From positions 186,001 through 250,000 of the forward strand of contig KV423934.1 in NCBI GenBank assembly GCA_001632435.1: 64,000 nucleotides of DNA, given 5' to 3'. The DNA is from Calocera cornea HHB12733 (taxonomy: Eukaryota > Basidiomycota > Dacrymycetes > Dacrymycetales > Dacrymycetaceae). The notes below the pieces were generated by a model that did no database searches, was not told the DNA's origin, and saw nothing but the letters and a program-made list of their open reading frames with translations. The position numbers and the translations under genes are program-made. Positions 3,215 through 31,299 of the stretch are shown in pieces. Position 1 is the stretch's first letter; each line of letters starts with the position of its first letter.

Positions 3215-3474
3215 TGGGTGGATAGCTTGGTATAATACACGGGTAGGAGAGGGGAAGGAGAAATGGGAGAGGGAGGAAGGCTGCTGAGCAAGCTGGAGTG
3301 TTATGTAAGGTGACGAGCGCTCGGAAGAGGAATGCAGCGCGGAAGCGCCCGTGCTCTCTCCATCAGCTTCGACTGGAATATAATATGCGGCTACCAAATA
3401 CCATATCAGCAATACATATCGATATGAACGAGCTATCAGAAGAGGAGAAATGGTAAACAGAACGGTATCGGCTG

Positions 3475-6789: not shown

Positions 6790-7229
6790 GCTTGTTAGTT
6801 CAGATCCGTTGACGTTTGTTTTGGGTTTCTATCTCTCAGGTGAGCTGGCATGATCGACAGGGTAAATTTGGGTGCTCACACGGGGTCGGAGTCGGTCTAT
6901 GAAAAGTGGGAGCAAGAAGGGGGCGCGACGGGACGCTTTGCTTCTGCTGCTGAGAGAAGCCATAAGACCTTGGCAACGTCGAGCTGCGTACACTCCCAGG
7001 TTGAGGTGTCTGTCAAGCAATGCGAGACATATATATATGCTGGAATGAGCGCCGAAGTTTGCGAAAAGCGGTGCATCGCCCATTGTCGCATCTCTTCGGA
7101 TGCCCCTAACGACGAATATGATTTAGCCGAGAAATCCTGCCAGCAGAACACAGAGCAAGCGTGGACACAGGGTCTGCAGATTGCGCTATTTGGAGCAGTG
7201 ATCCAGCGCGTATCGAACCATCGATAGAT
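6790..7229. other. intergenic/5' region of DUF6535 paralogue A
   Basis: About 440 bp between the first supported exon of paralogue A and the tail of the broken copy next door. It should hold an upstream exon or the promoter of paralogue A. I could not fix either. Confidence 0.4.
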
Positions 7230-8165
7230 TTCTTTCAGACGACTTGCACGTGGAATTCGACAAAGTTGCTGTGGAGATGTTGGAATCTGAACTGTTGGCT
7301 CGAGCCTCTGGACCGAGTTGAGATATTCGCGAGCCAGTTCCTTCTAATGGTAAGGTCTTCTCATCGATCATGCTCGCGGAAGAGACGCGGGCTACGCTGA
7401 CCGTGATCTCCATGCCTCAGTTTTGCTGCATTCACACCTCGTGTCCGGCGCAGGGAAGCATTACTGTGATGCCACGATTTGCTCCCGTCTCTAGTCGTTC
7501 GTGCTTCCGCGTGATCCTTGAAGTACTTCCCCTCTCCAAAAGCATCCGTCTCACTTTATGTTTCCGTCTGGGCATTTTCCTGCGGTGACCCCTTTCAATC
7601 TTGCGTCCGCCTAAAACTATTACCTCCGTGGAAGAGAATTGCTTTGCTCCGCTGGAATTGTTTCCCTCCTTAGGTTGCTTCCGCTAGCTGATACCTCCGC
7701 CGAAGTACTGGCTTAAAGCGGGAGCACATTTTGGGAGCGGAAGCAATACCTTAGCGCGGAGGTAATCGCAGTAGCGGAAGCAACTCAAAGGGCAGTGGAA
7801 GCACGAATAGCCCCAAACGGGAACAAATATCTACTGCGTTAGTGGGAGGGACGTCTCCGGTTTATTGGGCCCAGCCTTAATCTGCACATACGCACCGTGT
7901 ACGTACGTCACCTTCGCGTCGGGACGGGGTACCATCACTTCAGTGTCTGGCTGTGGATGTCGAACTTACCCTCGTTGACCGACCTGGGCCTTGACGTCAA
8001 CTTAACGAGGCAGGAGACCAGCGGTTATCTGTGGGCCATTTACCAAACGCAGGAGCCGTCGTAGAAGACCGGCTTAGACAGTTGTGGTCAGAACGGGATC
8101 CTCCTCGCGGCTGAGGTGCGCTGCGATTAATTCCACTGGCCCAGCACCCATGAATTGCAGCGCGA
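7230..8165 (-). pseudogene. DUF6535 C-terminal fragment split by an insert
   Basis: Two minus-strand blocks match consecutive parts of the C-terminal domain of the intact paralogue at 42.5-45.0 kb. Block 8165-8015 gives FMGAGPVELIAAHLSREEDP, then a TAA where the paralogue has Tyr (TAT), then AGLLRRLLRLVNGPQIT. Block 7430-7230 resumes near the paralogue's MELMAQRCPRLF and continues to REYLNSVQRLEPTVQI. About 580 bp lie between them. The stop codon, truncation and insert make this a dead copy. Confidence 0.75.
7432..8008. mobile_element. inverted-repeat-rich insert inside a DUF6535 pseudogene
   Basis: This ~580-bp segment has no counterpart in intact paralogues. It is built of inverted copies of two short words: gcttccg (7502, 7677) against cggaagc (7737, 7774), and acctccg (7621, 7692) against cggaggt (7757). 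An outer pair, ttcgtgcttcc (~7498) and ggaagcacgaa (~7797), also pairs. It has no coding capacity. A MITE-like or foldback element is the simplest reading. Exact ends and target duplication were not resolved. Confidence 0.5.
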
Positions 8166-8384
8166 AGCGCCGCCCTCGAGAGACGCGCCTCTGCCGTCGA
8201 GTGCATCTGTCGCGAGCACAGGCTTTCCTGTTTGTATGCTAGCTCTCGATCCCACCCTTTGCTTCGATCCCACCCTTTGCTTCGATCTCCTCGTCAACTT
8301 GCACGTCGGCATGTATGTGTGTGTACGCTCAAGTGGCCTTTTCAGCAGTAGCGCGTCATCTCGGCGCGTTATCTCCCCGCCACG

Positions 8385-9328
8385 GCCGCTCGCGCAAGCT
8401 GAGGAATCGGCTCCTCGTGCAGCCTATGCATCTCGTCCCCTCTTCCGGGCCATCTGAGGGCGCCGCTGCGGCCCAGTCGTACTCCCATTCACAGCATGCG
8501 GACGGAGGGGTGATATGTGGTCCAGGAGCCAGTCTCTGTCATACCTGTTCCGCATATTCTCTGGCTCTGCTGCATGCTGCGGAATTTGGGCGCGCTCATG
8601 TCCATGCCGGGCATACTATAAGCCTTCGACACGCAAATATTTGATCCCAGTCTGCGTCGAAGTTGACACCAACGCGCACCGGGTTCGCGACTCGTTTCTC
8701 CGGATCCTGCACCCGGGGGACGTGCAGCCCGAGGCTTGACCCGCCAGTTCCTGACCGAGCTCGACGTGCCCCAGAGTTATGCCGACCAGGTGGTGGCGAT
8801 GATCCCCGCCCGGGTGGAGGATACTGTGGGGATTGTAACGTTTAGGGAGGATGAGGGGGAAGCAGGGGAGGCCGGAAGGACCAGGCGCCGGACTGTCGAG
8901 TGTTCCTCAATGTGCGTCTTCTCACCTCGGCTTCACTCTATTGCCGTTCTAACGCCCGTACAGTATGCATCTGGACGTGAGGATCTCCACCTATCACCTA
9001 ATGGGAACGATCCAGTACTCGCTCTACCTCACCCCCAGCAACGTGATCCCCCTCGCTCTTCGCGCACACCCTCGCCCTGGACCTCTTCCTCCCTTTCTCC
9101 TCAACGCCCCTCATAGCGCACGTGCTGACCGAAGAGCTCCTCCGCCGTAAGAAGACGCCAGCCACTCGGGCGTCCTAGGCGTGGTGCCGCAGAGCAGGAG
9201 CAAAGCCGTCCAGGTTGGAGGCTCTGTCTGAGGAGGAGCTGGAATGGAGAGAGGGGGAGAAGGAGAGGGCTATTAGAAGGGTGAGGAGGGAGACTGCGAG
9301 GCAGATGCGGGCTAGCAGGAGGCGCTAG
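8385..9328 (+). pseudogene. SNF5/SFH1 duplicate, internally deleted
   Basis: It matches the functional gene at 50.7-52.3 kb in order: LLVQPMHLVPSSGPS (~8420), then a large internal deletion, VSVIPVPHI (~8550), the first SNF5 repeat (STRKYLIPVCVEVDTN..., 8620-8850), a second-repeat piece around LDVRISTYHLMGTIQYSLY (8965-9030), and the C-terminal Arg/Glu helix ending at 9328. A frame break follows QPEA near 8738. The intron before the second repeat is still recognisable (gtgcgt...acag at ~8912-8963), so the copy arose by DNA duplication and not through mRNA. It lies tail-to-tail with a DUF6535 remnant, as the functional gene does with DUF6535 paralogue D. Confidence 0.8.
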
Positions 9329-9472
9329 CTTCGGGGAAGGGGGAGGAATTGGCACGTTCATGTTGTTATTCTATCCGGTGCAGTCATTATTCCTCTGCGC
9401 ATAATAGTTTCCAGCTCAGGCATATAGGTTCGGAAGGGAAAGAAAGAAATACAATCTGAAAGAAAACGGCTT

Positions 9473-10097
9473 CTACTCTTGCTGCGGGCGGTTGGTCGTG
9501 ATAATTGTCCGTACCAAGGCTTTGAAACGCGCGTGATCCACTTCGCCAGTTCCATCGCCATCGCTTATTGACTCGGCGCCCTCTTCCTCAGGCGGCTCAT
9601 CCGCCTCTCTGAGAATGTGCTCTCCTGCCTCTTCTGCTCTCTGGACGTGCCCAGCATCGCCAAATTTGGTTCCCTCGTGCAGTTCCACAGACAGTTCCTC
9701 GCTTGGCTCCACATTTGGTCTGCGCACGTCGGTCACATCGTTTCGTAGCACCGTGTGCGTTGACAGTTCCGGGTTGTGTTGCTGTTCCTGGAATCCACTG
9801 ACGCTATTACCTGCCCACTCTTGACTCTGGGGCGGCATTCCCGAACCGAGTACGAGCGCACGGCTGCCCGATTCCTGGCTCCTCTCCTGCTGTGATGGTG
9901 CGACCAGCCTAGCGTCCAGCATTCCGGTCGAGAGAGATTCCCGTACCAAGTCCAATAGTTTTGCAAGTTCCTGCTCCTCTTGGCCGCCACGCTCGCTAAG
10001 GAGCATTGGAGCAAAACGATGCTCCATATGCTTCAATACGTTGGTTTCTTGGAGTTTGCTGCGGTATGGAGTTACAATTAGGGAGAGGAATAGGCGG
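9473..10097 (-). pseudogene. DUF6535 paralogue B, 3' part, cut by Gypsy insertion
   Basis: From the LTR boundary this minus-strand frame reads LFLSLIVTPYRSKLQETN, then a region matching the MMVMAQHCPPISPKHARRKAEQE part of paralogue A, then a hydrophilic tail to the stop at 9473. Its start is fused to the retrotransposon. The 5' continuation lies beyond the element at 20932. Joining the two flanks after removing one 4-bp target duplication gives an uninterrupted frame through the conserved LLRLLR-type motif, so this is one gene split by the insertion. Confidence 0.85.
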
Positions 10098-10530
10098 TGA
10101 ATAGCTATTACCACAATCTGTAGTAGATAGAATAATGGGATCTGTGTTGAGTTCTATCAGAGGAGTGTCGCCCGTGAGATATCGATATAACGNNNNNNNN
10201 NNNNNNNNNNNNNNNNNNNNNNNNNNNNNNNNNNNNNNNNNNNNNNNNNNNNNNNNNNNNNNNNNNNNNNNNNNNNNNNNNNNNNNNNNNNNNNNNNNNN
10301 NNNNNNNNNNNNNNNNNNNNNNNNNNNNNNNNNNNNNNNNNNNNNNNNNNNNNNNNNNNNNNNNNNNNNNNNNNNNNNNNNNNNNNNNNNNNNNNNNNNN
10401 NNNNNNNNNNNNNNNNNNNNNNNNNNNNNNNNNNNNNNNNNNNNNNNNNNNNNNNNNNNNNNNNNNNNNNNNNNNNNNNNNNNNNNNNNNNNNNNNNNNN
10501 NNNNNNNNNNNNAAGAGAATCGGATGTACA
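10098..10530 (-). repeat. 3' LTR of Gypsy-1 (contains gap)
   Basis: Positions 10098-10192 equal 20580-20674 base for base, and 10513-10530 equal 20914-20931. The middle is a 320-N gap, whereas the other LTR implies only about 239 missing bases. It begins TG and ends CA. Confidence 0.95.
10193..10512. other. assembly gap (320 N) inside LTR
   Basis: A run of 320 N. The intact LTR at 20580-20931 predicts about 239 bp here, so the gap size is probably overestimated. Confidence 0.95.
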
Positions 10531-10816
10531 TCCGCGGGGAACTTTAGAAAATGACTGTCCTCAGTCATGAGGCATGAACGCGGATCAAAATCGAGATGAA
10601 GAGGCAGCTCAGAAGAAGGAAGGAGACTCTAACGCGTTATTTTGGCGTTATGTTGGATATCCGAGACAGGCGTTATTTCTTTTTGGTCGGTTTTCGTTTT
10701 TCTGAGGGTATTTGTTGGTTCTCTTTGTGATTCTTTTTGGTTTTTCTTGATTTTCCAGTGCTACTGGGCTTCAACATCCGCGGGGAACTTTGAAGAATCA
10801 CCCTTCCATGGGTGAT
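10531..10816. repeat. paired box-plus-hairpin modules
   Basis: The box catccgcggggaacttt occurs at 10528-10544 and 10775-10791. Each is followed by a perfect small hairpin with a 6-nt loop: ATGACT/AGTCAT at 10551-10568, and ATCACCC/GGGTGAT at 10797-10816. The stems differ in sequence but both pair completely. They lie between the 3' LTR and the antisense gene. The intervening ~230 bp are T-rich and non-coding. Confidence 0.7.
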
Positions 10817-10974
10817 GCGGCGTTTAGGCGGCGATCACTACCTGAAACAGGGGGTTTTTGCGCGTAGAGTTGGTGGCAGTGCGGTCGCCTGATAACGCTC
10901 GACGTCGGCAGCGCCGTTCGCTGCGCTCTGTCTTCTCGTCTAACGTCGATCCTCTGCTTTGATCGTCATACGCC

Positions 10975-13267
10975 ATGTCTGACTCTGTCGCTATGGAACC
11001 GTTCGAGCTCGAGCTGGTGGACGAGGATGTGCGTGAGGATGTGGCGGCGATGGAGACGCTGAACGCGGCGACGGAGGAAGAAGAAACGCTGGCGCGGTTG
11101 AAGGCGTGGAAGGGTATGCTGGGAGCGCGGTTCCCGAAGACGCTGTTGGATTTCGTTGGCTACGAGAAGAGCCAGTTCCGGCAGACGCAGTATCGGGTAC
11201 GCATGCCGATCGCGTTAGTTCTAACGGCGTGCTGATACCGCTTGCTGCAGAAGCACTGTGTGGCCTTGATGGCGAAGGCTCCCCACGCGCTGATCTTTCA
11301 GCCGTGGTTCTATGTGAAGTACATGGGCCCGCGGATGCAGCGGCTCTGGTATTTCGGGCGGCTCCGCGCTGGGAAGGAGGTACGTCCAGGTCGATAACGC
11401 CACGGGTAACGCCTGACTAACGCCTTTGCGGTAGGTATCGAACGAATTCGATCCCATGGTGCGCGGCCTGGGTCTTGCCAGCGCGCAAGAAGACTTTCCA
11501 GGGCCAATCGTGGTCCCTGAGGCGTTACCGAGCGGCAGCGGCCCGTACACGGGTGACGAGGTCTGGCCTTTCCCTCGTCAGGGTTGGCAGGCCGAGACGA
11601 AATTGGGGATGACTTCCCGCTCGGGGACGAGTACCGCGGACGCGGGGCGCAAGGAGGTGGAGAAGGCGGTAGAGGTCGCTGCCGCAAAGACGACCGCTGT
11701 GGCGAAGCGCCAGCAGGAGAAGGCGCCGGGGCGCGAGGTGGAAGAAGCGGTATGTATCTAACGCGTGCCGATAACGCTCGTGACTGATGGTTGTGACAGG
11801 ATGGGTCCGTTGTCGATCTCGACAGTGAGACCAAAGGCGATCTCGTTATCGCCGGGGCCAAGTCGAAGCAGGTGGCGCCGCTGAAGACGGGGGGAAAGGC
11901 TGTGGCGTCGTCGACGGTAAGTAACGCGCCGCGTTACTTGTGACGCTCACTGATGCCGCTCCGCAGAAGGCTGAGAAACCGCCGGCGCAGGCGGCCGCTC
12001 CAAAGGCGAGCAAGAAGACGGGTAAGCCGGAGAAGCAGGCCGCGGCGACCGGGACGAAGAAGCCGAAGGATGAGAAGGGGAAGAAGCGGGCGGTAAGCGC
12101 GTTACTGTTATAACGCTTTTTCTTGTGATGCTGATTGGATGTTTGTGGGAATGCTAGGAACCGGCCTTGACGTGGGAGGCCTTCAAGAACAAGTCGGGCA
12201 AAATCTGGCTGGTGAAGGACTTCGGGGAGAAGGTACGTGACCAGCCGCGCGTTTAAGCGCGTTAGAAATAACGCTGTGCTGACTCGTTTGTGTTGGATTG
12301 TTGTAGTGCGAGCGCTGCGACGCCAGCGACAAGGTCTGCAAGACGCGGGCCTTGGACAAGCCCTGCACGGCGTGTCATATGCTGGCCAAGCCGTGCTCGT
12401 TCACGCCACCGACAGGTGAGTACCACGTAGTCAAAGTAACGCGGCGTTACTGACAATAACGCAGATGGACGGCGCTTCCGTGAACACGGCGTCCACACGG
12501 ATCCGGCGAAGCGCCTGAAGCACGAGTCGGTCGAGCCGAGGATGACGCGCGCACAGGCTCCTGTCCGTGTCAAGCAGGAGGATATTGACGCGCCGCGGGA
12601 GTACAAGGAAGTCGAGCTTCCTATCCGTGAGTCGCCGAGTAACGTCGCGTTAACGCGAGCTAACGCTCTTGTCGCAGATTTGGCAGTCCAGCACATGCAG
12701 TCGTCATTCGACTTCCTCTACGGCGGACTGATGGAAACCGGCGCTAATTTGCGCGAATTGGCGTCGGCGATTTCGGAGGGCAGCAAGACTGTCAACCTCC
12801 TGCTGAGCTCGGAGATGTGGAGGGGGAAGATTGACGGCGAAACGGGCCGTATCGTTACGATGGATCCGTCGGTCCCAGAAGCGGACACCGAGACCGACGA
12901 TAACGACGATAACGACAGCGACGTCCCCGTCGTTAAAAGGGAGAAGATCAAGCCGAGCAAGCCGCTGGTTCCAGCCAAGCGCAAGGCGACGTCCGACATA
13001 GAGGAGCCCGAAGGGAGCTCAGTGCGCCGTGTCAGTCGGCGCATGCGGAACATACGCCCTGAGATCGAGTTGGGCGGTAGAAATAACGACAAGGTCGTTA
13101 TTCCCGACTCCGAGGCCGAGAAGGACGGGCAGGAGTTGGAGAGCGAGGAGGAGGCGGGGAATGGCGAGGAGTCCGATTCAGGGGACTCTCAGGACGATTT
13201 CCAACCGGAAACGTCGGCGGCGGGTTTGCGGCGGAGTGGGAAGTCGGCCAGGAGTGGCCGCCGGTAG
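10975..13267 (+). CDS. Zn(2)Cys(6) zinc-cluster protein carried antisense in Gypsy-1
   Basis: Nine exons (10975-11196, 11251-11379, 11435-11749, 11800-11916, 11967-12092, 12158-12232, 12307-12415, 12465-12626, 12678-13267) give ~614 aa; all introns are GT-AG, 49-74 bp. Layout: acidic N-terminus; a Trp/Tyr/Phe-rich segment (~residues 45-115, with IFQPWFYVKYMGPRMQRLWYF); a Lys/Ala-rich linker; then a cluster of six Cys at 329, 332, 339, 348, 351 and 358 (CX2CX6CX8CX2CX6C), which fits the fungal binuclear zinc cluster that binds DNA in nuclear regulators; two VKQE/VKRE sites of the sumoylation type; an acidic Ser-rich tail. The last intron (51 bp) is stop-free and in frame, so it may be retained. 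Between them the introns hold 20 TAACG/CGTTA sites in 448 bp. It is tail-to-tail with pol. Role inferred: a factor controlling the element. Confidence 0.85.
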
Positions 13268-13616
13268 ATAACGTCGGAGAGAATAGGTAACGCACGGGCG
13301 TTATCCGGAGTGGGGCCCGTTAGTAGGATGGCCACTTAGATAGTTTTGTAACGGTAGTAGCGGTGGAAAGAAAACGTGCGAAAACCCCAAGCTGAATTGG
13401 TGTGCCAGAGAGTGCCACCTTGGACAAGAAAAGTAAAGATGTTTTTTGTGTTTGGCGACTATTTTTGGAGGATAACGCTTGAATAACGCTGCGGTAGCGC
13501 TAATTGAGAGACTGAGGATTTCTTTTTCTTGTTCTTGTTGTTTTCCTGTTGAGAAGGATGCGCTGGTATCTTCAGGGTATCTTGCGACACATTTGGCCCT
13601 ATCTGGTGATTGATTC
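13268..13616. other. spacer between convergent zinc-cluster gene and pol
   Basis: 349 bp between two convergent stop codons. It carries seven TAACG/CGTTA sites (for example 13268, 13287, 13298, 13474, 13486) and no gene. It presumably holds both polyadenylation regions. Confidence 0.7.
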
Positions 13617-16600
13617 TCAGGTGTCCATGTTGGACTGTACCCTGGCTTCATGGGCGGTATCGTCGTTATCGTCTGACGGTATAACTTCGGTAACGTCGTA
13701 CGGTGCAGAGTCCAATCGACGGAGCAATTCTTCCACTGTCGAAGCAAGTGATTCTCTTGCATGATATGGAATGAGTCTGAATGCCGCAATGGAGTATCTT
13801 GCAATAGTCCCATCCAATTCCGCGATGATATAGGACTTCCCCGTCGTCCGGCGGATAACGACAAACGGTCCTAAGTAATGCGGCAAGGACTTATCTCGTA
13901 AATCTCCATCATTCTTGCTGTTGCGGACCAGTACAAGTGCGCCAGGGCCGAAGTCAAAGTCTTTGATGACATTGGCATACTTCTGACTGAACCGTTTGGC
14001 TGAGACTTCTCGGGCCTTGACGATACGGTCATGCATGTCCTTGAGATCGTCTTCTCTTCTCATCAAGAGTCTTGCACGTGCGCCAATCAGGTCTTCCGTT
14101 GTATACAAGGAGGACGGAGGAGGTAATAAGAATGTGGCCTCAGCCAGATCCAAAGGTAGACTGGGGTGCGTTCCATGTGCCATATAGTATGGGCTTAGAC
14201 CGGTGATAGAATTGAGCGTTATTCGTTCCGCCCAGAATACCGCCGGTGCTGCCACGGGCCACTGGGAGATATCGCCTTTGGTAGCCTTCACAAGACTTTC
14301 ACGGACTCCTCTGTGACTTTGTTCCACTACACCATTTGCTCTGGAATTGTACCCGGAGATTCGGATATGGTTGACGTTATATCGACGCGTTAACTCCGAT
14401 AACACTTTTACCCATGGGGTACCATTATCGGTGACAATTTCGTATAGCGCGCCCCATCGGCATAGGAGTGTATTGAACACAAAGTCTGCCAGGTTCTTTC
14501 CTGTTTCCGTGCGAAACATGGCCCATTCTGGGTAATGTGTGAGAGAACAACGGGCTTGGGCGATATATCGGTATCCGGCTTTCGGCGTTTTCGACGGTGT
14601 CATGAGCATTGTATCACAGTACGCCTTGCCAAATAACTTGGCCGGTTGCTGTACTGTTGGGGGAATAAGGACTTTTCGTGTTTGTTGTTGTTGACAGAGT
14701 GGACAGGTCTTCAGGTACCATTCCAGGTCCTCTGCCATATAGGGCCACCAGAATCGGAGTGAGAGGTGTCCTCGAAGAGCCTTCAGTCCTTTGTGACCGA
14801 GATCGTCGTGTCCCATTTGCATTGCCCGGTATCGCCGGGCATATGGAAGGAAAAGTTTATGTTCAGCGTTATCCTGGCGGCGGTATAATTCGTCGTTATC
14901 TGCCAGGAAGAACTGTGCTGAATATTCCAACAGGTGTTTCCATTCTCGGCTGGAGAGTCCTTCAGGTCTTTGAAGGGATCGCTGGAACTGTTTGACTTGT
15001 TCTAAACGCTTGTCTAGTGCAAAGGCCTTTGGTGATAGGGGTAGAAGCGTTATTGGGACGGTATCCGGATAACGCTCGGTGGGTGGAATATCGTCCTGCG
15101 TGGGAGAACTTGGTCTTGTAGGCGGTTCACTATTTGGTGGAGTAGTGAAGGGTGACAGTGGCATGGTAATAAGTTCATCCTCATCCTCAGAGCCACCTTT
15201 CCTTGTGCTGTCCAGGTTCAATCCTTGAACAGAGGTGTCTGCTTGGATAACGCTCGATACACCGGCGATATCGGCGTGAGTGTCCTCCCCCTCCAGGTTT
15301 AGAAGAAGAGGCACTCCGGGCCTCAAGGTCGGGCGAACCGGCACGGCGAGGGAAAGATGAAGGCACGGCGTGAACGAGAAGTCAAACGTGTCATCATCGT
15401 AGGGCAACACCGGTTCAGGAGCAGGGTCAGCGTTATCCCGTGGGCGGCGGGATAACGCGTCAGGGGCGGTATGCTGTGTTGCCGGAACATGAACGAGGTT
15501 GAAGCTGAAGAGGCAGATGTAGGCAATCCATCGGTTCAAGGCGGTGTTGGGCTGCACGTCAGGGTTACGCAACATGCCTCTAAGGTACTGGGCGTCGACT
15601 TCCAAGTCGAAAGTGTCCAAACCGATGAGCCAGACGCGATATGCTTTTAACGCCACGAAAACGCCATAACATTCAAGCTTGGCCTGAGAATAACGGGCTT
15701 CGCGGTCGTTCCAAGTAATAGAGCCGAAACGGGAGGGGCACCGTTTACCGGTAGAGTCGAGTTGGTAGAGGACGAAGCCCACAGCAATGTTGGACGAATC
15801 AACAGCAAAGATAACGCGCCGTCCACTGCTGTAATCAATAGGGCGGAGGACGTTATTATGTAACGCTGCCTGTGCGGCGTCTTGTAGTTGTTGAACTGCA
15901 GCATAATGGGCAGGGCCAAACTCAAAAGGCACGTCTTTTTTCTTCAGGTGCTCCAGGGGCCGGGCGATATGGGCGAAGTTGCGTATGAAGGTTCTCATAA
16001 TACCAATCGTGCCAAGAAACGAACGGACTTCAGAGACGTTCTCACAAGGTAGCTTCCAGTCGAGAATCTTCTGGATTTTGGACGGGTCCGGGTGACGGCC
16101 TTCATATGAGCAACGGTGCCCAAGGAGAATAATTTCTGGGACGCAGATTTCGACTTTTTCTCCGGACAAGGTAGCTCCCGAGTGCTCAATACGGGTAAGG
16201 ATCCGGTGAACATCTTGTAAGTGCTCCCATATAAAGCGGCGGATGCCTGGGTTCAAGGCAATGGTTTCGTAGTCGCCAGCGTTATTCTGATAACGCGTGG
16301 GCGGTCCTTTTATACCGCTGTCGTCAATGAAAGGGGTTGTGATATGGGGTATTTCCGGCTCGAGAATAAACGTCACGTTATCCTGCATAATGCCAGGCAT
16401 GTTGTGAGCACCCATGGGAGCGACACAATAGCGGAGAGGTCCCATGGGAGATTGGAACGACGTTAGATCGCGGGATTCAGGAGATAACGCGTGTTGTTCG
16501 AAGCCTCGGTAGAAGTCAATGAGGGAATAACAGGCACGGCCGCCATAGGACTCGATTAAGTGCTCGGTGAGAGGAGGCACGGACGAGCTTTTGACCATAA

Positions 16601-17399
16601 CACCATTGAGGGGTTGGAGATTGATGACCGGACGCAGGGAGCCGTTCTTTTTAAGCACGACGAACCAGCTTGAGCGGTAAGCGGACTGAGCGGGCTCATA
16701 AGCACCGGCTTGGATCTTCTCCCGAATGGTTTGGATAACGCTCGGAACTAACGCCGGCGGTATGGGAATGTTCTTCTCTTGCCATGGGGTGTGTTCAATG
16801 ACTGGGAACACGACGGGGCTGAAGTAGTCGTCACGGAACCGGCCGATCTCGATCTCTTCCCAGGAAAAGGCAAATTCGTGGGTACGCAGGATCCAAGCCA
16901 CTAGGCGTTCTTCCTCTGGCCAGAGGAAGTTGAACTTGTTAATCCGCATGGCGTCAAAGCGGGCCTGAGTCAGTCGCGTTCCAGGTGTAAAGGGAGGTGC
17001 GACCGGTGGAAGTGGCGATAGATTCGCAAGTGGGTCGGATGGGAAGCGGCGGCGGATCTTCATATCTTCGGGGTGTGTGGTAGAGACCGGCTTCACGCGG
17101 TGCTCCACTTTCTTGTACTTTCGGAGAGCGAGGACGTGATGGTTGGTATCGTAGAAATAGGTTCGAGACAGTAGAGGAGAAGGGGGCAGGGTATAAAGTT
17201 CAGGTATAACGCTTTCGGCGTTATCAGCGTTACTGTTGGAGTAAAGCAAGACGTCTCCCCAGTTAGAAACCGGATCATCGAGTCTCAAAAATCCTCGTGA
17301 TTGCTGACCGTTGGGGCCACTGGTGGTTTGCCGGACGGTCGAGGAGTAGGATGCCACGGACGTGTGGGAACTTCCACCCGTATGCCGGTATTGGGGCAC
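13617..17399 (-). CDS. Gypsy-1 Pol: reverse transcriptase, RNase H, integrase
   Basis: An intact frame of up to 1260 aa. Reverse transcriptase spans roughly residues 200-450, with SLIDFYRGF and an active-site FIDD at 357-360 in place of the usual YxDD. RNase H begins near AVDSSNIAVGF (~532), with DAQYLRG and a PDALSRRP end. A Pro/Asp-rich linker follows. Integrase shows the zinc-binding HDDLGH (864-869) and CPLC (899-902), then the catalytic Asp of YCDTMLM (929), Asp of VTDNGTPW (991) and Glu of NGVVEQSHR (1026), and a C-terminal GPGALVLVRNSK domain. All catalytic residues are present. The protein copies the element's RNA and inserts the cDNA. It begins in a frame overlapping the protease C-terminal frame (17620-17285), so it is probably made by frameshifting from Gag-protease. 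Confidence 0.95.
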   Translation of the reverse strand: MPQYRHTGGSSHTSVASYSSTVRQTTSGPNGQQSRGFLRLDDPVSNWGDVLLYSNSNADNAESVIPELYTLPPSPLLSRTYFYDTNHHVLALRKYKKVEHRVKPVSTTHPEDMKIRRRFPSDPLANLSPLPPVAPPFTPGTRLTQARFDAMRINKFNFLWPEEERLVAWILRTHEFAFSWEEIEIGRFRDDYFSPVVFPVIEHTPWQEKNIPIPPALVPSVIQTIREKIQAGAYEPAQSAYRSSWFVVLKKNGSLRPVINLQPLNGVMVKSSSVPPLTEHLIESYGGRACYSLIDFYRGFEQHALSPESRDLTSFQSPMGPLRYCVAPMGAHNMPGIMQDNVTFILEPEIPHITTPFIDDSGIKGPPTRYQNNAGDYETIALNPGIRRFIWEHLQDVHRILTRIEHSGATLSGEKVEICVPEIILLGHRCSYEGRHPDPSKIQKILDWKLPCENVSEVRSFLGTIGIMRTFIRNFAHIARPLEHLKKKDVPFEFGPAHYAAVQQLQDAAQAALHNNVLRPIDYSSGRRVIFAVDSSNIAVGFVLYQLDSTGKRCPSRFGSITWNDREARYSQAKLECYGVFVALKAYRVWLIGLDTFDLEVDAQYLRGMLRNPDVQPNTALNRWIAYICLFSFNLVHVPATQHTAPDALSRRPRDNADPAPEPVLPYDDDTFDFSFTPCLHLSLAVPVRPTLRPGVPLLLNLEGEDTHADIAGVSSVIQADTSVQGLNLDSTRKGGSEDEDELITMPLSPFTTPPNSEPPTRPSSPTQDDIPPTERYPDTVPITLLPLSPKAFALDKRLEQVKQFQRSLQRPEGLSSREWKHLLEYSAQFFLADNDELYRRQDNAEHKLFLPYARRYRAMQMGHDDLGHKGLKALRGHLSLRFWWPYMAEDLEWYLKTCPLCQQQQTRKVLIPPTVQQPAKLFGKAYCDTMLMTPSKTPKAGYRYIAQARCSLTHYPEWAMFRTETGKNLADFVFNTLLCRWGALYEIVTDNGTPWVKVLSELTRRYNVNHIRISGYNSRANGVVEQSHRGVRESLVKATKGDISQWPVAAPAVFWAERITLNSITGLSPYYMAHGTHPSLPLDLAEATFLLPPPSSLYTTEDLIGARARLLMRREDDLKDMHDRIVKAREVSAKRFSQKYANVIKDFDFGPGALVLVRNSKNDGDLRDKSLPHYLGPFVVIRRTTGKSYIIAELDGTIARYSIAAFRLIPYHARESLASTVEELLRRLDSAPYDVTEVIPSDDNDDTAHEARVQSNMDT

Positions 17400-17544
17400 G
17401 TCAATTGCAGCGTCAGATCTCCGTCGATGTTGTCGTAGGATATGGCGTTAAGCAGGGTTAAAAATGGACGGCCCAGGAGTAACCGGAAGGGGCATTCGAC
17501 GACGATATGCACTTGTAGCAAGAGCGTTATATTACCGCTGTCTG

Positions 17545-18175
17545 CACCACTCAGTTTTGGACTGTACGGAGTCCGTCTGAATGGGCAATCCGAGGGCGTC
17601 GTATTCCGTGAAGTCGTCACAGGTCCGGAAGGGTATTCCGGAGTCGGAATAGCAAACGGGATAGGTGTAATTAGTTAGGAAGGTCCGGAATAGAGTGTAA
17701 AGTGTAGGGAGCGATAGGAGATCTGGGGAAGTAGAGGAGTATAGTCGAGAGAAGATGTCGGAAGCCGGCCCCCCTTTCGGAGAAGGAGAATCCGGCTTTT
17801 ATCTGCCTAACCCGATGTTTACCTTTCGGAATCCCATCTCACGGGGTATATCACCGGGGGCTGATTTCACCCAACCTAAGGGACCCTCTCATCCGACGGG
17901 ACGCCTTTCCAGTTGTCCCGTTTGTAAATTGAGGACCATCCGATGAGAGAGAGTCTTCGCCCGTGAATCCGTCGGGTGCGTTCCGTCGTATACGCCATTC
18001 CGAGAGGGTTCCGTGACCGGAACGGCTATACGGAATAAACCCCTCCAACCCGGAATTGGCTGACGGACCGGAGGGCGAGGCAGGGCGAGTCCGGAAGGTG
18101 TCCGGACTTCCGGTGCCGTATCTCCGGAAGGCCGGAACGCGAAAAATTGGGCCACAGTGACAAAGGGAACTGTAC
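17545..18175. mobile_element. foreign TCCGGA-rich insert in the Gypsy-1 protease
   Basis: The protease should run from DSGS and VTVGG straight into LLLQVHIVV and LLLGRPFLTLL, as it does in the older Gypsy at 28 kb. Here ~0.6 kb separates the two halves (ends are approximate). This piece has no TAACG site but about eleven CCGGA/TCCGG and about eight GGAAT/ATTCC words, the composition of the element at 22.9-24.35 kb. I infer a nested insertion, perhaps a solo LTR of that family. It truncates the Gag-protease frame at 18026. Confidence 0.6.
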
Positions 18176-20311
18176 ACCGCCCACGGTAACGCGTAAGTTG
18201 CGGACGCAACCGACCGTCGCTGAGGCTTGGTTATTGGCCGACTCCATGGTAATCTTGCGGTCAAGATCCAGAGGGAGCTGCAAGGATTTCCAGGTTTCCT
18301 GGCTCATGGCGGCAATGACAGACCCAGAATCGATACACCCTGACATGGGAGTGTCAAGATCTCCTACCAAGAGATCGATTTGTCGCAAGCCGACAACGTC
18401 ATGTGCCGTCACGACTCCGTCTGGAGCTTTAAATGATCCGGATATATGAAGTGATTGAACCGGTGATAACGATGCAACTTCTGGGTTGGTGTCGTTATAT
18501 AACGCGCTTGGTAACGTCGTTATCTCGGAACTGACATTTAGAACCGGAGCGTTAGTCTTCTGTACCCATTGGGACATGCAATCCTGTATGATCCGGCCGC
18601 GAAAGTCGTTGGAGACTGCCATCAATTGTCGTACCGTCAATTGGACTTGTTGTTCATAGACTGAATCCAAGGCTTCCTCCTTGGTGCCATCCATTTCAAT
18701 AGGAGCCTGCCAAAACGTTTTGGTCTTCTCTTTCTTGTCGACCTCGAGGGTTTTGGTAGGGGATGAGATTGTTGGACCTCCAGTGGGCATATTCGGTTGA
18801 GTCGGACGTGCGTTACTCTGGGGCGCTAGCGTTACATCAGGAACCGTTTTCTTGGGTACCGGACGACCTCTGCTCTCTTCGGCCCTCTTAATGTTACTGA
18901 TTTCCACTTGGAGAGCATGAATACGCTTGGCTGCTTGGAACGATAACGGGGATTCTGCGTATTGAGGAAGAGGGTTCGGGTATGATTGAGATGGGGGTGT
19001 TATCTCAGTGAGCGCTGCATTGGGAGTGTCGAAGGTGAAGGCTGGTGCGTGATGTTCGGACACGGCAAAGAGGGCGACCGGGGCTTTGGTCTGAGATTCT
19101 CTCGCCAAGATGTCTGACTGAGTGTTTCCCGGATTCGCCGCATGCCAGTTGAGAACGCGTTCACGGAGGTTAACGCCCTGATAACGGAAGGGGACGTAAT
19201 TGCCGTTTGGAAGGCATAGGCGACGGTCCGGGTTACGCATCACCAGTCCCTTCTGAATGTATTCGTTGACATCTTGACATTCGGCCACGTAGTGGGATTC
19301 ACCACACCAGATGCATCCTGGCGGTCGAGAGGGAGGTCCTTGATTCACCGTGGGTAACATGGGTGACATCGCGCTATTGGAGGCGTTATAAGGAGCGTTA
19401 ACTGGGGGAGCGGTGGTCGGCATTCGTATGTTTTGATGGTTCGCTTGCTGTTGACCGTTAATGAGAAGTGTAACAGCCGACGTAAGAGCTGCAACCATGT
19501 TGAGCATTCGATCTTCCGGTTCTGACTTTACGACCCGTGTGGACAGCGTCATGCTGGTGTCAGAAGTAACGTCGGATAACGCTACTACCGGTGCTTCGGC
19601 TGACGTCCCCGCAAGCAGCCAGTTAGAGGCGTCCAAGAGTTCCTTCATCTCATACGGATCCTCGGGGTAATGGTCAGAGGCCTTGATCTGGAGTCGTCCG
19701 ATTAAGCGCTCGCGGAAAGCAGGCTCGAAACCTCTCATGAATTCTCGGCTCTGTTCGTGTTTGGATATTTTCTGTTTCTGGACCAACCACGACGAGATCC
19801 TGTTGAATTCTCGGTAGTACTCTCCAAATTGAGCTCGGTTCTTCAAGGCGATCTTGGAAGACCGGTCGACCAGTAACTCCAAGTCCGTACGGGAATATCG
19901 GCGGTCGTCCGAAGTGGCTCCTGGGTAGAGTCCCAGTACCTCGGCCTTGAAGGCTTCATAGCTTGCACCGTCGTAGGTAGGGAGCGCCGTCCAGGTTTCT
20001 TCGACGTTACCTGGAGGATAACGCACCACCCAGCTGATCTTGTCTCTATCATCAAGCGACGCTGCTGTTGCACATTGCTCGAAGTCTTCAAAGTAACGGC
20101 GGACATCCGTCGGATTGCCTGAGACAAACTTTGGGGCATCCCTGGAGGTGCGAAGTGGCATCGGTTTCTCCGCCATGTTGAACGTATCGTTGATAACGCC
20201 TGATAACGCTCGACGGAGTTCCGCGTCGAGGGTCGCCTGTGGTGCAGACGGAGGAATATCGAGAAGAGCCTGGATTGTCGCTTCGTCTGTGGATCCTGCT
20301 CGGGACGACAA
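18026..20311 (-). CDS. Gypsy-1 Gag with aspartic protease (truncated)
   Basis: A 761-codon frame, of which the last ~50 codons belong to the inserted segment. The capsid-like part (~60-240) has the Gag signature AQFGEYYREFNRISSWL. One zinc knuckle, CIWCGESHYVAEC, starts at residue 333. Its spacing is CX2CX3HX4C, one residue short of the canonical form, while the sister element at 29.2 kb has the full CX2CX4HX4C. The retroviral-type protease active site CIDSGS lies near residue 670. The protease is cut off after VTVGGVQF, and its C-terminal half is found downstream in another frame at 17620-17285. The Gag particle should form, but protease activity of this copy is doubtful. Confidence 0.85.
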   Translation of the reverse strand: MSSRAGSTDEATIQALLDIPPSAPQATLDAELRRALSGVINDTFNMAEKPMPLRTSRDAPKFVSGNPTDVRRYFEDFEQCATAASLDDRDKISWVVRYPPGNVEETWTALPTYDGASYEAFKAEVLGLYPGATSDDRRYSRTDLELLVDRSSKIALKNRAQFGEYYREFNRISSWLVQKQKISKHEQSREFMRGFEPAFRERLIGRLQIKASDHYPEDPYEMKELLDASNWLLAGTSAEAPVVALSDVTSDTSMTLSTRVVKSEPEDRMLNMVAALTSAVTLLINGQQQANHQNIRMPTTAPPVNAPYNASNSAMSPMLPTVNQGPPSRPPGCIWCGESHYVAECQDVNEYIQKGLVMRNPDRRLCLPNGNYVPFRYQGVNLRERVLNWHAANPGNTQSDILARESQTKAPVALFAVSEHHAPAFTFDTPNAALTEITPPSQSYPNPLPQYAESPLSFQAAKRIHALQVEISNIKRAEESRGRPVPKKTVPDVTLAPQSNARPTQPNMPTGGPTISSPTKTLEVDKKEKTKTFWQAPIEMDGTKEEALDSVYEQQVQLTVRQLMAVSNDFRGRIIQDCMSQWVQKTNAPVLNVSSEITTLPSALYNDTNPEVASLSPVQSLHISGSFKAPDGVVTAHDVVGLRQIDLLVGDLDTPMSGCIDSGSVIAAMSQETWKSLQLPLDLDRKITMESANNQASATVGCVRNLRVTVGGVQFPLSLWPNFSRSGLPEIRHRKSGHLPDSPCLALRSVSQFRVGGVYSV

Positions 20312-20560
20312 CTCCGTGGATGGGGTAAGAGAATCCGGGGTTTGATGGATGTTGATTGGAGGTAACGCGGGCGTTATAGTGGGAGCTGAGGCGACGAGAG
20401 ATGGGGGCGAAGGAGTTGGATATTGGTTCCGGCGTGTATTGACAATGATGGCTGAAGAGGGACGTCGAAGGAAGATACGTTATGTTGTCGGGGATATCGC
20501 AATGTCGAAGATACTAATCGAGACAAGTGAGCACTGTCAGTCTGATAGAAACTCACCAGA

Positions 20561-20578
20561 ATCCCGGCATGACCTCCA
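20561..20578 (-). other. primer-binding site of Gypsy-1
   Basis: One base inside the 5' LTR the minus strand reads TGGAGGTCATGCCGGGAT. This is complementary to a tRNA 3' end: CCA, a discriminator, seven acceptor bases, then a CCCGG T-stem. The priming tRNA was not identified. Confidence 0.75.
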
Positions 20579-20579
20579 A

Positions 20580-20931
20580 TGAATAGCTATTACCACAATC
20601 TGTAGTAGATAGAATAATGGGATCTGTGTTGAGTTCTATCAGAGGAGTGTCGCCCGTGAGATATCGATATAACGCTTTGTCGATAACGCGAAGTAACGCT
20701 TCGTCTGGTGTCTGGGTAGGGGGGGAAAGATAACTCATATTCACTACCTAGACAGCATGGTTAAGTAGCTACGGGATTCCTGTATATTCCCAGGCACCAG
20801 GCACCAGGCACGAAGCCGTTCCTGGTACCTGACCAAGTGAGACTTGTGTAACTCGGAATCCGTACGGAGCGTTATCTACGTAACGCCCCTCTAACGCTTT
20901 GTCACCAATCACAAAGAGAATCGGATGTACA
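20580..20931 (-). repeat. 5' LTR of Gypsy-1
   Basis: 352 bp, TG...CA, matching the LTR at 10098-10530 over every readable base. It holds six TAACG/CGTTA sites (20671-20695 and 20870-20895). The element's promoter should lie here. Confidence 0.95.
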
Positions 20932-22091
20932 GCGGAGCAGCCTGGAACAGAGGGAGGCTGGGGGAATGGGGGTTTTCTCTCGGCCGAAGTACGCAGCGAG
21001 GGCCTCTACGGATCTCGCCACCATGAACTTGTCCGGATGGTTGATAAATCCTCCGTCGCGAGAGACCACATCGAACAGATCCATTGGCGTCTTCTCATCT
21101 GTCCCTTCGGAGGCGGGGCTCCCGAAGTAAGTCTCCATGTCGAAGGTGATGGTTCTCAGGTGGCCGTGGTTTATGAGCCAGGACACCGCGGCTTCTCCGA
21201 CATCAATCGAGGTGAGAATACGCCAATGCGCTCAAAGTCGAGCATTATCTTCCGAGATGGTTGAAGGCGCCGACAGACGAGTGAGCAAGGCGTTGAGCAA
21301 GCCTGTTCCTCAAGGTACAGTTCATCGTTGTCCATGAGCCAGACTGATAGTACTTCGCAATGGACTCTGCGATCCATGAACCAGGAGATCTCCTCAACGA
21401 ACTTGAGTGCAAGGGTAATCAAGTCCATCGACTGCCCGGTTAGCAATAGGCTTGATAAATACCAAAGGGCACGGTGTGCATCTTCCAATGTAACTTCGAC
21501 GTCCGGGTTTCGGAAGAACCCGAATGACGCTCAAAGCCAGTCTGAGTTTGGGCCCACTGTTGAATCGGTCGTACTCCAGCTGGTTCAGTAGCTTTGGCAA
21601 TGCTAAGGGTGCACCGCAAAGAGCTGCTCGGGAGTTATTGCGGGAAAAGACATTCTTCACGTTTGCTATAGTGTCCTGACCATTCCGGTTAATCACTTGC
21701 AAGCTCTTTGCTGCTCTCCTTACCAGAAGGTTCTCCTCTTCGGACGTAGCCAAGACATCTACCAGGCTGCTGAAGAACCTTTTGTACGACATTTTGATCC
21801 GTTTCCGAGTATTAATCTTGAGTCGGATTGCGCGTCGCCCCATCTCGCTTCCGTCTGATTGATCAATCTCGTCTTCATCCTCCGGTACCATAATTCATCA
21901 ATGGCTGCAAGGATATGCTCCAGCCCACCTAGTTCGTGCTGAACACGGTCTCCAAAGGCATCCAGCAAAGCGGGTAAGGTGTGCTCCTTGACCATTGCCC
22001 GCATTGAGTCCCGGGGTCCATGTCCTGGTAGAAGCAAAGTGTTTTCGAAGGCCGGAATAGACGCAGGCACCAGTTGTTGTGACACAACCAC
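20932..22091 (-). pseudogene. DUF6535 paralogue B, middle part, frameshifted
   Basis: Minus-strand pieces match consecutive exons of the intact paralogues: 22091-21897 and 21890-21720 (exon around DELWYRRMK and VDVLATSEEENLLV), 21720-21500 (LLNQLEYDRFNSGPKLRLAL), 21488-21190, and 21186-20932, ending EKTPIPPASLCSRLLR at the Gypsy-1 boundary. At least three frame changes separate them. The exons for the membrane region are absent, so the gene was already degenerate or has decayed since. The 3' continuation is at 10097-9473. Confidence 0.8.
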
Positions 22092-22136
22092 CTACAAGGG
22101 CAATATATGAGAGCATGGATATGTACCAACAAAAGG

Positions 22137-22938
22137 TTACAGTCAACTCTGCCTAAGCGAATTGCGTCTAAGGGAATATCCTCTCTAAGAGGATACAATT
22201 TGGCTTTCTCGAGTTGAGATTGGTGGGAAATCCAGGCCGATGCATAAGGAGAATATGCATACTATTGGCCGACACAGCTCATAGTGATATGCTTTTAGAG
22301 AGAGGCCTGATCTGCCCGATGCTTCCGTTAATATTATGCCTCATAGTAAAACTTTTCACCACAAGCCTTGCGTTACCTCAGGACTACCACAATGCCTTCC
22401 CTCACACTTGAAAAGTGTCTTGAAATCATCGAGTACTGTGAGCAGCATTGTGGATCAAAGCTGGTCACACAACGAGACATTGCTGCAAAGTTTGGAGTTG
22501 GACAGCCGACAGTCTCACGTCTCTGGAAAGAGCAAGACCAGATTTGACAGCAGGCAACAGAGAGCAAGAATCTGAGAGCAAAGCGACAGCGTCAAGTGGA
22601 ATACCCAGCAGTGGAGTACATGCTGGCAATATGGCTTGCACAATCCGAGGCTGAAGGTCTGGCAATCACTGGTGAAGTTCTTCGCACCAAATGGCAGTGG
22701 TTTGCCACGGAGGCTGACATTGAGCCAAGTGACTGGCTGAAGCTCTCCAATGGCTGGCTGACAGCCTTCAAGTGACATCATGGCTTGAAGGGGTATCACT
22801 TGCATGGCGAAGCAGCTTCAGTAAACCAGAATGAGGGCATTGAGGCACGAGCAAAGCTGCGGAAGATCACTGATGAGTACACACTGCCGAACATCTTCAA
22901 CATGGATGAGATGGGTGTGAGGGCACACAACCCACAAT
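22137..22938 (+). pseudogene. pogo/Fot1-type DNA transposase, 5' part
   Basis: After a TA at 22137 the sequence begins cagtcaactctgcctaagcg, the style of a pogo-superfamily terminal inverted repeat. The transposase frame starts with ATG at 22392 and has a helix-turn-helix (TLEKCLEIIEYCEQ... DIAAKFGVGQPTVSRLWK) of the CENP-B/psq type, a second CENP-B-type domain (ITGEVLRTKWQWF), and the first catalytic Asp in IFNMDEMGV. TGA stops replace Arg at two places. The frame ends abruptly at about 22938, where ATTCC-rich sequence begins, so the catalytic domain was cut off by a later insertion. Confidence 0.8.
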
Positions 22939-24350: not shown

Positions 24351-24458
24351 TCGAGTTGAAAATCCCATGAGCGTGCGATCGAATCAACAGTTTTGACGGA
24401 GTCTTTGTTATGTTCTGTCTTGGGGTATGGGTATAGGAAGACTAGGCGAGGACCATCC

Positions 24459-30873: not shown

Positions 30874-30904
30874 ACAGGTGTCTATCTATACTAGTCCTCT
30901 ACAC

Positions 30905-31290: not shown

Positions 31291-31299
31291 GGTCTAACA

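Follow-up and report, generated by a model that had tools for sequence, protein, structure and literature searches.

A dense and conserved TAACG word in a Calocera cornea Gypsy retrotransposon and its possible role as a protein-binding address

A Ty3/Gypsy retrotransposon of the wood-decay fungus Calocera cornea HHB12733, here called E1, carries about one hundred copies of the short word TAACG, in coding and non-coding parts alike, and copies of the family keep this word better than other words containing CpG. We consider it very probable that the TAACG(C) words are selected sites for binding to double-stranded DNA. Relatives of E1 carry different words, which suggests an address code for protein binding that is specific to each family and may serve to escape silencing. 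Whatever the mechanism, purifying selection on some 100 copies of a short word, even within introns, is unusual.

Results

Layout of the element

The window analyzed is a stretch of 64,000 nucleotides (contig KV423934.1, positions 186,001 to 250,000). E1 (10098..20931) is flanked by GCGG on both sides and was assigned to Ty3/Gypsy from its LTRs and the order RT, RNase H, integrase in Pfam searches, in which RT_RNaseH and Integrase_H2C2 scored above cut-off and RVT_1 (E 1e-4) below its own. Coordinates are collected in Table 1. The gag-pol open frames lie on the minus strand, which corrects an earlier reading made from the letters of the window (hereafter the sequence-only reading). Since a 320-N assembly gap at 10193-10512 lies within the 3′ LTR, the true length of this LTR is uncertain. 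The 5′ LTR holds six TAACG sites, arranged as two groups of three. When pol DNA was used to search for copies of the same family, only E1 itself and two low-identity relatives were returned; the other E1 copies that we saw were assembled only beside LTRs, often at contig ends.

Table 1. Features of E1, in window positions
Feature	Position	Strand	Remarks
E1, whole Gypsy element	10098..20931	- (gag-pol sense)	LTR repeat; RNase H and integrase zinc-binding domains
3′ LTR (left)	10098..10530	-	first 95 bases equal the right LTR
TAACG/CGTTA array	10188..20896	.	103 sites in 48 clusters
aORF, antisense gene	10975..13267	+	9 exons, 614 aa; between pol and 3′ LTR
aORF introns	11197-11250, 11380-11434, 11750-11799, 11917-11966, 12093-12157, 12233-12306, 12416-12464, 12627-12677		8, all GT-AG
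aORF cysteine cluster	12307..12396	+	CX2CX6CX8CX2CX6C; candidate DNA-binding part
pol open frame	13620..17447	-	1276 aa; RT, RNase H, integrase zinc-binding
Solo LTR of TCCGG-word Gypsy family	17555..18165	.	between gag/protease and pol frames
gag and protease start	18189..20479	-	open frame of 763 codons
5′ LTR (right)	20580..20931	-	352 bp, TG...CA

Enrichment of TAACG

The 103 sites (59 TAACG, 44 CGTTA) compare with 17.9 expected under a dinucleotide model, a 5.8-fold excess, and 69 of them are TAACGC/GCGTTA, in line with earlier estimates of about 100 words, mostly of the six-base form, at roughly five times chance. GCGTTA occurs 69 times where 4.3 are expected, and AGCGTTAT and GATAACGC are top-ranked among all 8-mers of the element. 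In the k-mer ranking that the sequence-only reading had proposed, CGTTA is the top 5-mer of E1; it remains so under a stricter 4-mer-aware model, in which the excess is only 103 against 58 because GTTA and AACG are themselves raised. The observed-to-expected ratio (O/E) of TAACG is 6.2 in E1 versus 0-1.6 in the 14 other regions tested, and 0.5-1.2 in four other slices of the window (1-10097, 32-42k, 42-52k and 52-64k). The density is about 10-fold that of the 10,097 preceding bases, which hold 10 sites, rather than 17-fold as first claimed. Specificity is sharp, judged by one-mismatch neighbors: among one-base changes of TAACGC, TACCGC reaches 3.8x, TATCGC 2.0x, last-base variants 1.9-3.2x and the rest 0-1.6x. 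Other window slices have enriched words too, mostly AGG/CCT and AT simple runs.

As had been noticed, sites lie in LTRs, introns, exons and spacers and in both orientations, and one long stretch is silent. This longest gap between sites (17525-18187) contains the inserted segment of about 17.55-18.17 kb, which is a solo LTR from a different family; TAACG is absent from it, and TCCGGA has an O/E of 9.6. The observation that the word follows the element and not base composition is borne out. Against the 28 sites of pol and 23 of gag (51 together, where about 50 had been estimated), 500 synonymous shuffles of each frame left 8.4 ± 2.5 and 7.0 ± 2.5, respectively, with a maximum of 16 in each case, so that neither the proteins nor codon bias can be the cause. 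The densest part of E1 is the set of aORF introns, with 20 sites in 448 bp; the aORF exons have 8 in 1,846 bp.

Spacing of the sites

The sites had been described as not in tandem. No tandem array is reported within E1, but placement is not random. When sites no more than 60 bp apart are joined into clusters, steps within clusters are mostly 9-14 bp (about 11 bp), and clusters often lie about 155-215 bp apart. Neighbors at 15 bp or less number 37, compared with 14.8 expected (maximum 28 in 2,000 simulations). Pairs 60-149 bp apart are depleted (33 versus 89 ± 13 expected) and pairs 155-215 bp apart are in excess (104 versus 61 ± 11), neither value being reached in 4,000 simulations. The excess at 155-215 bp falls short of significance on the gag side (p 0.13), and long-range periodicity of the clusters is not supported (maximum power p 0.64); local order remains. 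Genome-wide, the paired-site pattern matched 146 times and its reversed control 130 times; pairing by itself is therefore not specific. A five-site TAACG cluster with steps of about 10 bp occurs at C39:72006-72053, between frames that by eye appear C2H2-like; the surrounding 3 kb show no BLAST similarity to E1.

Conservation between copies

Comparison of copies, also proposed earlier, showed that living copies keep TAACG better than other CpG words. In four gag-side copies, 13-17% diverged, 90-92% of TAACG sites are intact (L016 12/13, L017 11/12, L021 9/10, L008 9/10), compared with 41-47% of other CpG 5-mers (40/94, 33/81, 32/75 and 35/75, in the same order). Like the k-mer ranking, this conservation speaks for selection, in agreement with the view that the gag-pol copies demand selection or a directed process. 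The aORF introns give the same contrast: against E1, motif columns are identical at 96/98 in each of the two long copies C2 and C247, and other columns at 262/337 in C2, whose introns differ by 22%, and 294/339 in C247. The contrast is absent from the introns of L009 (24/25 versus 79/84) and L022 (14/15 versus 55/59). Among other pairs of E1 copies, one of eight was significant and seven of eight ran in the expected direction, and the LTR alignment shows just a small contrast (motif 0.979 versus 0.953). Conservation of the word is clear for the E1 family only.

Two decayed copies keep 3/18 and 3/23 whole TAACG words and 24/217 and 18/287 other CpG 5-mers. That they lose TAACG like other CpG 5-mers argues against low mutability of the word. 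By column identity, the introns of the two decayed copies are still higher at motifs (20/25 versus 55/84; 47/55 versus 141/200). A CpG-depletion artifact was dropped, the CpG o/e of E1 being 1.12-1.13. One Gypsy-like stretch of the C. cornea genome has a CpG o/e of 0.03, which indicates that CpG loss operates in this genome.

The antisense gene

Two deposited C. cornea proteins agree with our model of the antisense gene, aORF: P0001 covers it from the start to exon 8, and P0003 from exon 5 to the C terminus. An intron ends directly ahead of the first cysteine codon of the aORF cluster, and likewise in two sister families. Zn(2)-Cys(6) binuclear clusters follow the spacing CX2CX6CX5-12CX2CX6-8C. 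E1 fits this rule, with X8; the C88 relative has a 21-residue loop, and the C127 cluster is degenerate. PF00172 (Zn_clus) did not match the E1 aORF piece and reached E 0.033 in the C88 piece (14.7 bits, under the cut-off of 21), and nothing in the aORF proteins scored above a Pfam cut-off. P0001 had no match among PDB sequences; its single-sequence AlphaFold2 model is poor (mean pLDDT 45.9), and a Foldseek search with this model gave no match at E ≤ 0.001. Homologue searches with three aORF proteins, which scored just those candidates with most words in common, returned 3, 3 and 1 matches, all from C. cornea. E1 and C88 share about 23% identity in aORF versus 64% in RT, a sequence contrast that suggests aORF is a fast-evolving partner gene.

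Words of related families

Is the word private to E1, as first described? TAACG is dense in E1 and rare in the 14 other regions, but words of their own recur in several Gypsy families. In one related Gypsy lineage (C88, C20, C5 and E2), TTCGA has an O/E of 2.9-3.6; in a second (C127 and C251), TCCGGA reaches 6.2 and 5.4. TAACG stands at 0.7-1.1 in all six. Antisense genes with several introns and related cysteine motifs are present in C88 and C127 too, divergent from the E1 aORF. Three Gypsy lineages thus combine different words with divergent aORFs, whereas the C1 chromovirus has a word without an aORF: its 21 CATTTCG words all fall within its 5.9 kb, and the roughly 40 bp between pol and LTR leave no room for an aORF, so a private word does not need one, which speaks against the antisense protein as the reader in all families. 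In C23, a distant family, TTCGA is raised to 2.8 and is therefore not strictly private. The words of C13/C101 and C23 are just moderately above those of other window slices, and C37 has no dense word. Conservation of sister words is supported for C88 versus C20 only and was not seen for C88 versus C5, C88 versus E2 or C127 versus C251.

Discussion

How might these words act? Their two orientations (59/44) point to a DNA-level motif, and an RNA-level motif was dropped for the same reason. In the explanation that we favor, a sequence-specific protein would recognize the E1 family through TAACG(C) on double-stranded DNA. Neighboring sites in a group are offset by roughly a turn of the helix, and the distance between groups is close to that of a nucleosome repeat; the bound protein would therefore occupy linkers along the whole element. 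The likeliest binder is the cysteine-cluster protein that the element itself encodes in antisense, and on balance we predict the aORF product in this role. The likeliest effect would be to keep the chromatin of the family open against silencing of the CpG-methylation type, as VANC does for VANDAL; that chromatin opening is the main role of the sites seems to us slightly better than an even guess. A change of binder in a family would replace its complete set of words, and the differences between the words of sister families would follow from this. What we observe are the enrichment, both spacing scales, the keeping of the word in living copies and its loss from dead ones, the antisense gene and the different sister words; the binding, the identity of the binder, its linker position and its anti-silencing effect we infer. 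Taken whole (selected sites on double-stranded DNA for a family-recognizing protein, likeliest the aORF product, that opens chromatin against silencing), the explanation is tentative, its chances falling somewhat short of even.

A bolder version, which we regard as doubtful, is that each Gypsy family of C. cornea has its own address code, a CpG-containing word together with a rapidly evolving antisense-encoded reader that would open the chromatin of that family alone. Along the whole length of E1, its words would stand in clusters stepped with the helix and separated by intervals the size of a nucleosome, and reader and code would be swapped together, so that coexisting families would give no mutual rescue.

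Another possibility, unlikely yet the best of the alternatives, is that a host transcription or architectural factor, different for each Gypsy family, binds the sites for expression or open chromatin, and that aORF has some other role. The C1 chromovirus, with its private word and no space for an antisense gene, fits such a factor, as do the C39 cluster outside any similarity to E1 and the likeness of TAACG to the c-Myb core. However, the four other window slices show no TAACG excess, about 100 sites including coding sequence go far beyond the needs of a promoter, and in three lineages the words change along with a fast-evolving element gene.

It is improbable, although in keeping with sites that run from LTR to LTR at nucleosome-scale spacing, that an element protein uses them for a different DNA-recognition step, for example to phase nucleosomes, to position the element in the nucleus, or to direct integration towards or away from itself; a word that contains CpG, together with the loss of CpG from dead copies, is more in line with methylation. 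We give very little weight to the idea that a host silencing factor recognizes the word, with the element as prey. Such a factor could efficiently target dense sites that are specific to one family, but prey would be selected to lose its sites, and living copies keep TAACG far better than other CpG words, whereas dead copies do not. Least probable is a functionless artifact of composition, codon usage or mutation, which the enriched simple words of other window slices might suggest and which the synonymous shuffles, one-mismatch neighbors, intron conservation and dead-copy control contradict.

Sequence-specific anti-silencing by a transposon-encoded protein has been described for plant DNA transposons (PMC5735166; PMC10398659). 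If such anti-silencing has also arisen in fungal LTR retrotransposons, self-recognition codes may be a general strategy of transposable elements. In the fungal case the sites would be so dense that they extend through coding sequence, with spacing on the nucleosome scale, and coevolution of reader and code could be tested directly across the several families of a single 32-Mb genome.

Among known systems, Retand-lineage plant Gypsy elements also have an antisense ORF between pol and the 3′ LTR, with predicted DNA-binding capacity as in E1; as described, most Retand antisense proteins carry TRP28, and tandem repeats are reported where E1 has a dispersed short word (PMC11963269). Fungal DNA transposons with TET/JBP dioxygenases may likewise be a case of fungal elements countering cytosine methylation, by an enzyme rather than a dispersed recognition word (PMC12730594). 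Instead of TRP28, for which the E1 aORF gave no Pfam match at E up to 1, the E1 antisense gene has a cysteine cluster and eight introns. Sites for TnpA of the DNA transposon Spm/En are subterminal, near the element ends, whereas those of E1 run along its whole body. TnpA is described as tied to demethylation of its own element (PMC10398659).

The closest likeness is to VANC, an anti-silencing protein encoded by VANDAL DNA transposons of Arabidopsis. The published accounts share with E1 a short word that is dense in one family and rare in relatives (PMC5735166; PMC10398659), sister families with different words, words in introns, and an element-encoded binder (in E1 a candidate) evolving faster than the replication gene. 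The analogy, drawn already in the sequence-only reading, is strengthened by an element-encoded cysteine-cluster protein and by the different sister words but does not extend to the arrangement of the sites. VANC sites are described as tandem-repeated, in one orientation and mainly non-coding (PMC5735166; PMC10398659); those of E1 stand in both orientations, form no tandem arrays, follow the roughly 11-bp and 155-215-bp spacing and extend through gag-pol. The candidate binder of E1 is a cysteine-cluster protein, unlike VANC, and E1 is a Gypsy LTR retrotransposon outside the Mutator-like VANDALs. By analogy, E1 most likely resembles VANC/VANDAL in its way of working without being a member of that system.

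Results

E1, a Ty3/Gypsy retrotransposon of the wood-decaying basidiomycete Calocera cornea, has a left LTR of uncertain length, since an assembly gap lies within it; the bases preceding the gap are identical between the two LTRs (95/95). Its antisense gene, aORF, is so called because it lies on the strand opposite to pol. The gene model is supported by two deposited proteins of Calocera cornea HHB12733: P0001, which matches from the start through exon 8 and then runs into the model's last intron, and P0003, which matches from exon 5 through the C terminus, including the last joint. The product contains a cysteine cluster, CX2CX6CX8CX2CX6C, whose spacing fits that of Zn(2)-Cys(6) clusters; a Pfam search of the product did not recognize this cluster.

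Features of E1 and of the sequence that follows it
Feature	Position	Strand	Description
E1	10098–20931		Ty3/Gypsy retrotransposon
E1 left LTR	10098–10530		includes 320-N assembly gap at 10193–10512
E1 right LTR	20580–20931		
E1 gag		minus	open frame, 763 codons
E1 pol		minus	1276 aa, RNase H and integrase matches
E1 aORF	10975–13267	plus	between pol and 3′ LTR; 9 exons, 8 GT-AG introns, 614 aa
Insert in E1	17555–18165		most likely a solo LTR
Repeat region	21000–24300		rich in TCCGG/GGAATA words; TCCGGA observed/expected (O/E) 8.5
E2	24300–31500		Gypsy relative, pol frames broken; TTCGA/TATCGA words, TAACG not in excess

The word TAACG/CGTTA occurs 103 times in E1 (69 as TAACGC), close to the roughly 100 copies of the sequence-only reading, against 17.9 expected from a dinucleotide model. 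The expectation rises to 58 when 4-mers are already modelled, and CGTTA still ranks first among the 5-mers of E1, so that the proposed enrichment withstands a k-mer test. GATAACGC is enriched 71-fold (21 vs. 0.3). The only raised one-mismatch neighbors of TAACGC are TACCGC (3.8-fold), TATCGC (2.0-fold) and last-base variants (1.9- to 3.2-fold). As the 10,097 bases preceding E1 (1–10097) hold 10 sites, the density contrast is about tenfold, not the seventeenfold first estimated.

This density is not explained by coding or composition. When synonymous codons were permuted 500 times with protein and codon usage held fixed, the 28 sites in pol compared with 8.4 ± 2.5 (maximum 16) and the 23 in gag with 7.0 ± 2.5 (maximum 16), in line with the earlier view that some 50 copies within gag and pol are hard to explain without selection or a directed process; unrelated words in pol showed no excess (TTCGA, 8 vs. 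13.1; TCCGG, 15 vs. 12.3). The least-constrained sequence accumulates the word: aORF introns contain 20 sites in 448 bp (44.6/kb), compared with 8 in 1,846 bp of exons (4.3/kb).

Adjacent sites are mostly 9–14 bp apart, and 37 neighbors lie within 15 bp (14.8 expected). When the observed clusters were placed at random in 4,000 simulations, pairs were depleted at 60–149 bp (33 vs. 89 ± 13; 0/4,000) and in excess at 155–215 bp (104 vs. 61 ± 11; 0/4,000). The respective p values by section were <0.001 and 0.002 for aORF, 0.011 and 0.023 for pol, and 0.029 and 0.13 for the gag side; in aORF, the spacing of the introns may play a part. No long-range periodicity of E1 sites was detected. The pattern looks like an exclusion of ~150 bp combined with a nucleosome-like repeat.

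An E1 LTR probe matched 32 places, many at contig ends, in the genome (32.1 Mb, 302 contigs). On the aORF side, the long copies C247 and C2 each retain 96/98 intron motif bases, compared with 294/339 and 262/337 of the remaining intron bases; coding bases outside the word are 0.971 and 0.945 identical to E1, and 27/29 and 27/28 whole sites are kept. Six shorter non-decayed copies were also included. L011, L015 and L024 agree with the long copies (35/35 vs. 88/111, 24/24 vs. 68/82 and 25/25 vs. 74/77), the intron contrast is absent in L009 (24/25 vs. 79/84) and L022 (14/15 vs. 55/59), and L019, in which no intron is present, does not enter it. On the gag side, in four copies at 0.835–0.868 non-motif identity, intact TAACG sites compare with other CpG 5-mers as 12/13 vs. 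40/94 (L016), 11/12 vs. 33/81 (L017), 9/10 vs. 32/75 (L021) and 9/10 vs. 35/75 (L008). Overall, TAACG is better kept than control CpG words in 13/13 non-decayed loci (p < 0.05 in 9), conservation among copies being one test that the sequence-only reading had proposed. These copies are related by descent (gag-side copies are 0.95–0.97 identical to one another), so the gag side represents about one divergence and the aORF side about two; several loci also share a contig. Among copy-versus-copy pairs, in which the window is not the reference, 7/8 point in the same direction and one is significant (L038 vs. L061, 21/21 vs. 226/291, p 0.006). The contrast in the LTR alignment is small (0.979 vs. 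0.953; 25/32 places, 20 distinct rows).

In the decayed copies L034 and L036, whole words are not kept significantly better than other CpG words (3/18 vs. 24/217 and 3/23 vs. 18/287), and almost all losses are CpG transitions, either C to T or G to A. At single intron columns the motif is more conserved (20/25 vs. 55/84 and 47/55 vs. 141/200), as would be expected if decay followed a period of selection. A Gypsy-like stretch on contig C66 (L076, G000:C66:47500-51500), stripped of CpG (o/e 0.03) and hence outside the word comparison, is a case of strong CpG-directed decay in this genome.

A reverse transcriptase (RT) piece of E1 pol gave 55 match rows, and DNA was compared at 13 of these places. 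TAACG has an O/E of 6.2 in E1 and 0.7–1.1 in the related elements C88, C20, C5, E2, C127 and C251. TTCGA is raised in C88, C20, C5 and E2 (2.9–3.6; ≤0.7 in E1, C127 and C251) and in the distant C23 (2.8), and TCCGGA in C127 (6.2) and C251 (5.4; ≤1.0 in E1, C88, C20, C5 and E2). In C13/C101 and C23, words are moderately raised. The sister words are upheld when synonymous codons are shuffled: TTCGA occurs 32, 14, 17 and 23 times in four C88 pieces (shuffled, 13.9, 5.9, 6.9 and 9.1; beyond all shuffles in 3/4) and TCCGGA 5 and 13 times in two C127 pieces (0.9 and 4.0). Sister words are better kept than control CpG words between C88 and C20 (80/84 vs. 878/1053, p 0.001), but not between C88 and C5 (33/51 vs. 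399/548), C88 and E2 (28/88 vs. 282/756) or C127 and C251 (51/73 vs. 572/806); for C13 and C101, p was 0.09. The distant Gypsy element C37 (L074, G000:C37:118500-122500), with a 1326-codon open frame, has no private word at a CpG o/e of 0.68 and is a useful negative case. In the pair counts examined, the C88 and C127 words revealed no E1-type spacing, so this spacing may be special to E1.

C88 and C127 carry antisense multi-intron genes at the position of aORF, with related cysteine motifs, and in all three elements an intron ends directly before the first cysteine codon. The C88 model equals deposited P0004 in length (786 aa; 93% identity). RT identity between E1 and C88 is 64%, and their antisense proteins are ~23% identical (E 8e-10, composition correction off); similarity between those of E1 and C127 is not significant. 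The compact chromovirus C1 (L080/L071/L079, G000:C1 about 54909-60828; Chromo domain, E 3.5e-9; LTRs 99.2% identical) has 15 CATTTCG in its 4.5-kb middle (0.7 expected) and 21 in total, all inside the 5.9-kb element; AGCGAAAT occurs 7 times vs. 0.4 after synonymous shuffling. Its pol-to-LTR interval of ~40 bp contains no antisense gene.

The insert in E1, a long stretch devoid of TAACG, matches 41 genomic places and is 9.6-fold enriched in TCCGGA. It is most likely a solo LTR of the TCCGG family, since its matches bracket the pol matches of C251 (two, 11 kb apart) and C127 (partial, C127:1-288; full, C127:10576-11187). The repeat region following E1 is partly common to L078, L030, L023 and the C88/C20 loci. 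L078 also contains a ~730-bp repeat (1476–2208, G000:C87; 92% copy at C41) with two TAACGC-rich clusters; unrelated to E1 by BLAST, it could be another family sharing the word. On C39, five TAACG-type sites in ~10-bp steps (L077 1508–1554, G000:C39:72006-72053) lie between frames that by eye resemble C2H2 zinc fingers; the surroundings have no BLAST similarity to E1, and the cluster is possibly a host site of the reader proposed for E1.

Discussion

What might the word do? Its presence in both orientations and its DNA-level spacing point to recognition as double-stranded DNA. That living copies keep the word and dead ones lose it suggests that the element benefits. From these patterns we infer binding, a reader and a function. 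The one obvious candidate reader that E1 encodes is the aORF product; C1, with a private word and no antisense gene between pol and LTR, stands against aORF as a universal reader. CpG-directed mutation usually signals methylation or RIP-like action. Since CpG decay in dead copies indicates that such mutation operates in this genome, the best-supported role is that of a reader that would shield CpG-containing sites and open E1 chromatin.

Our literature search, within the text accessible from open-licence papers, turned up no LTR element of a fungus in which a word of its own is dispersed. In plants, Retand Gypsy elements carry, between pol and the 3′ LTR, antisense ORFs that are predicted to bind DNA (PMC11963269). 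VANC21 binds a word of nine bases in the non-coding sequence of VANDAL21. Copies of this word point in a single direction and often form tandem repeats, and binding is accompanied by loss of CG methylation; VANC6 targets carry words unlike those of VANC21 (PMC5735166; PMC10398659).
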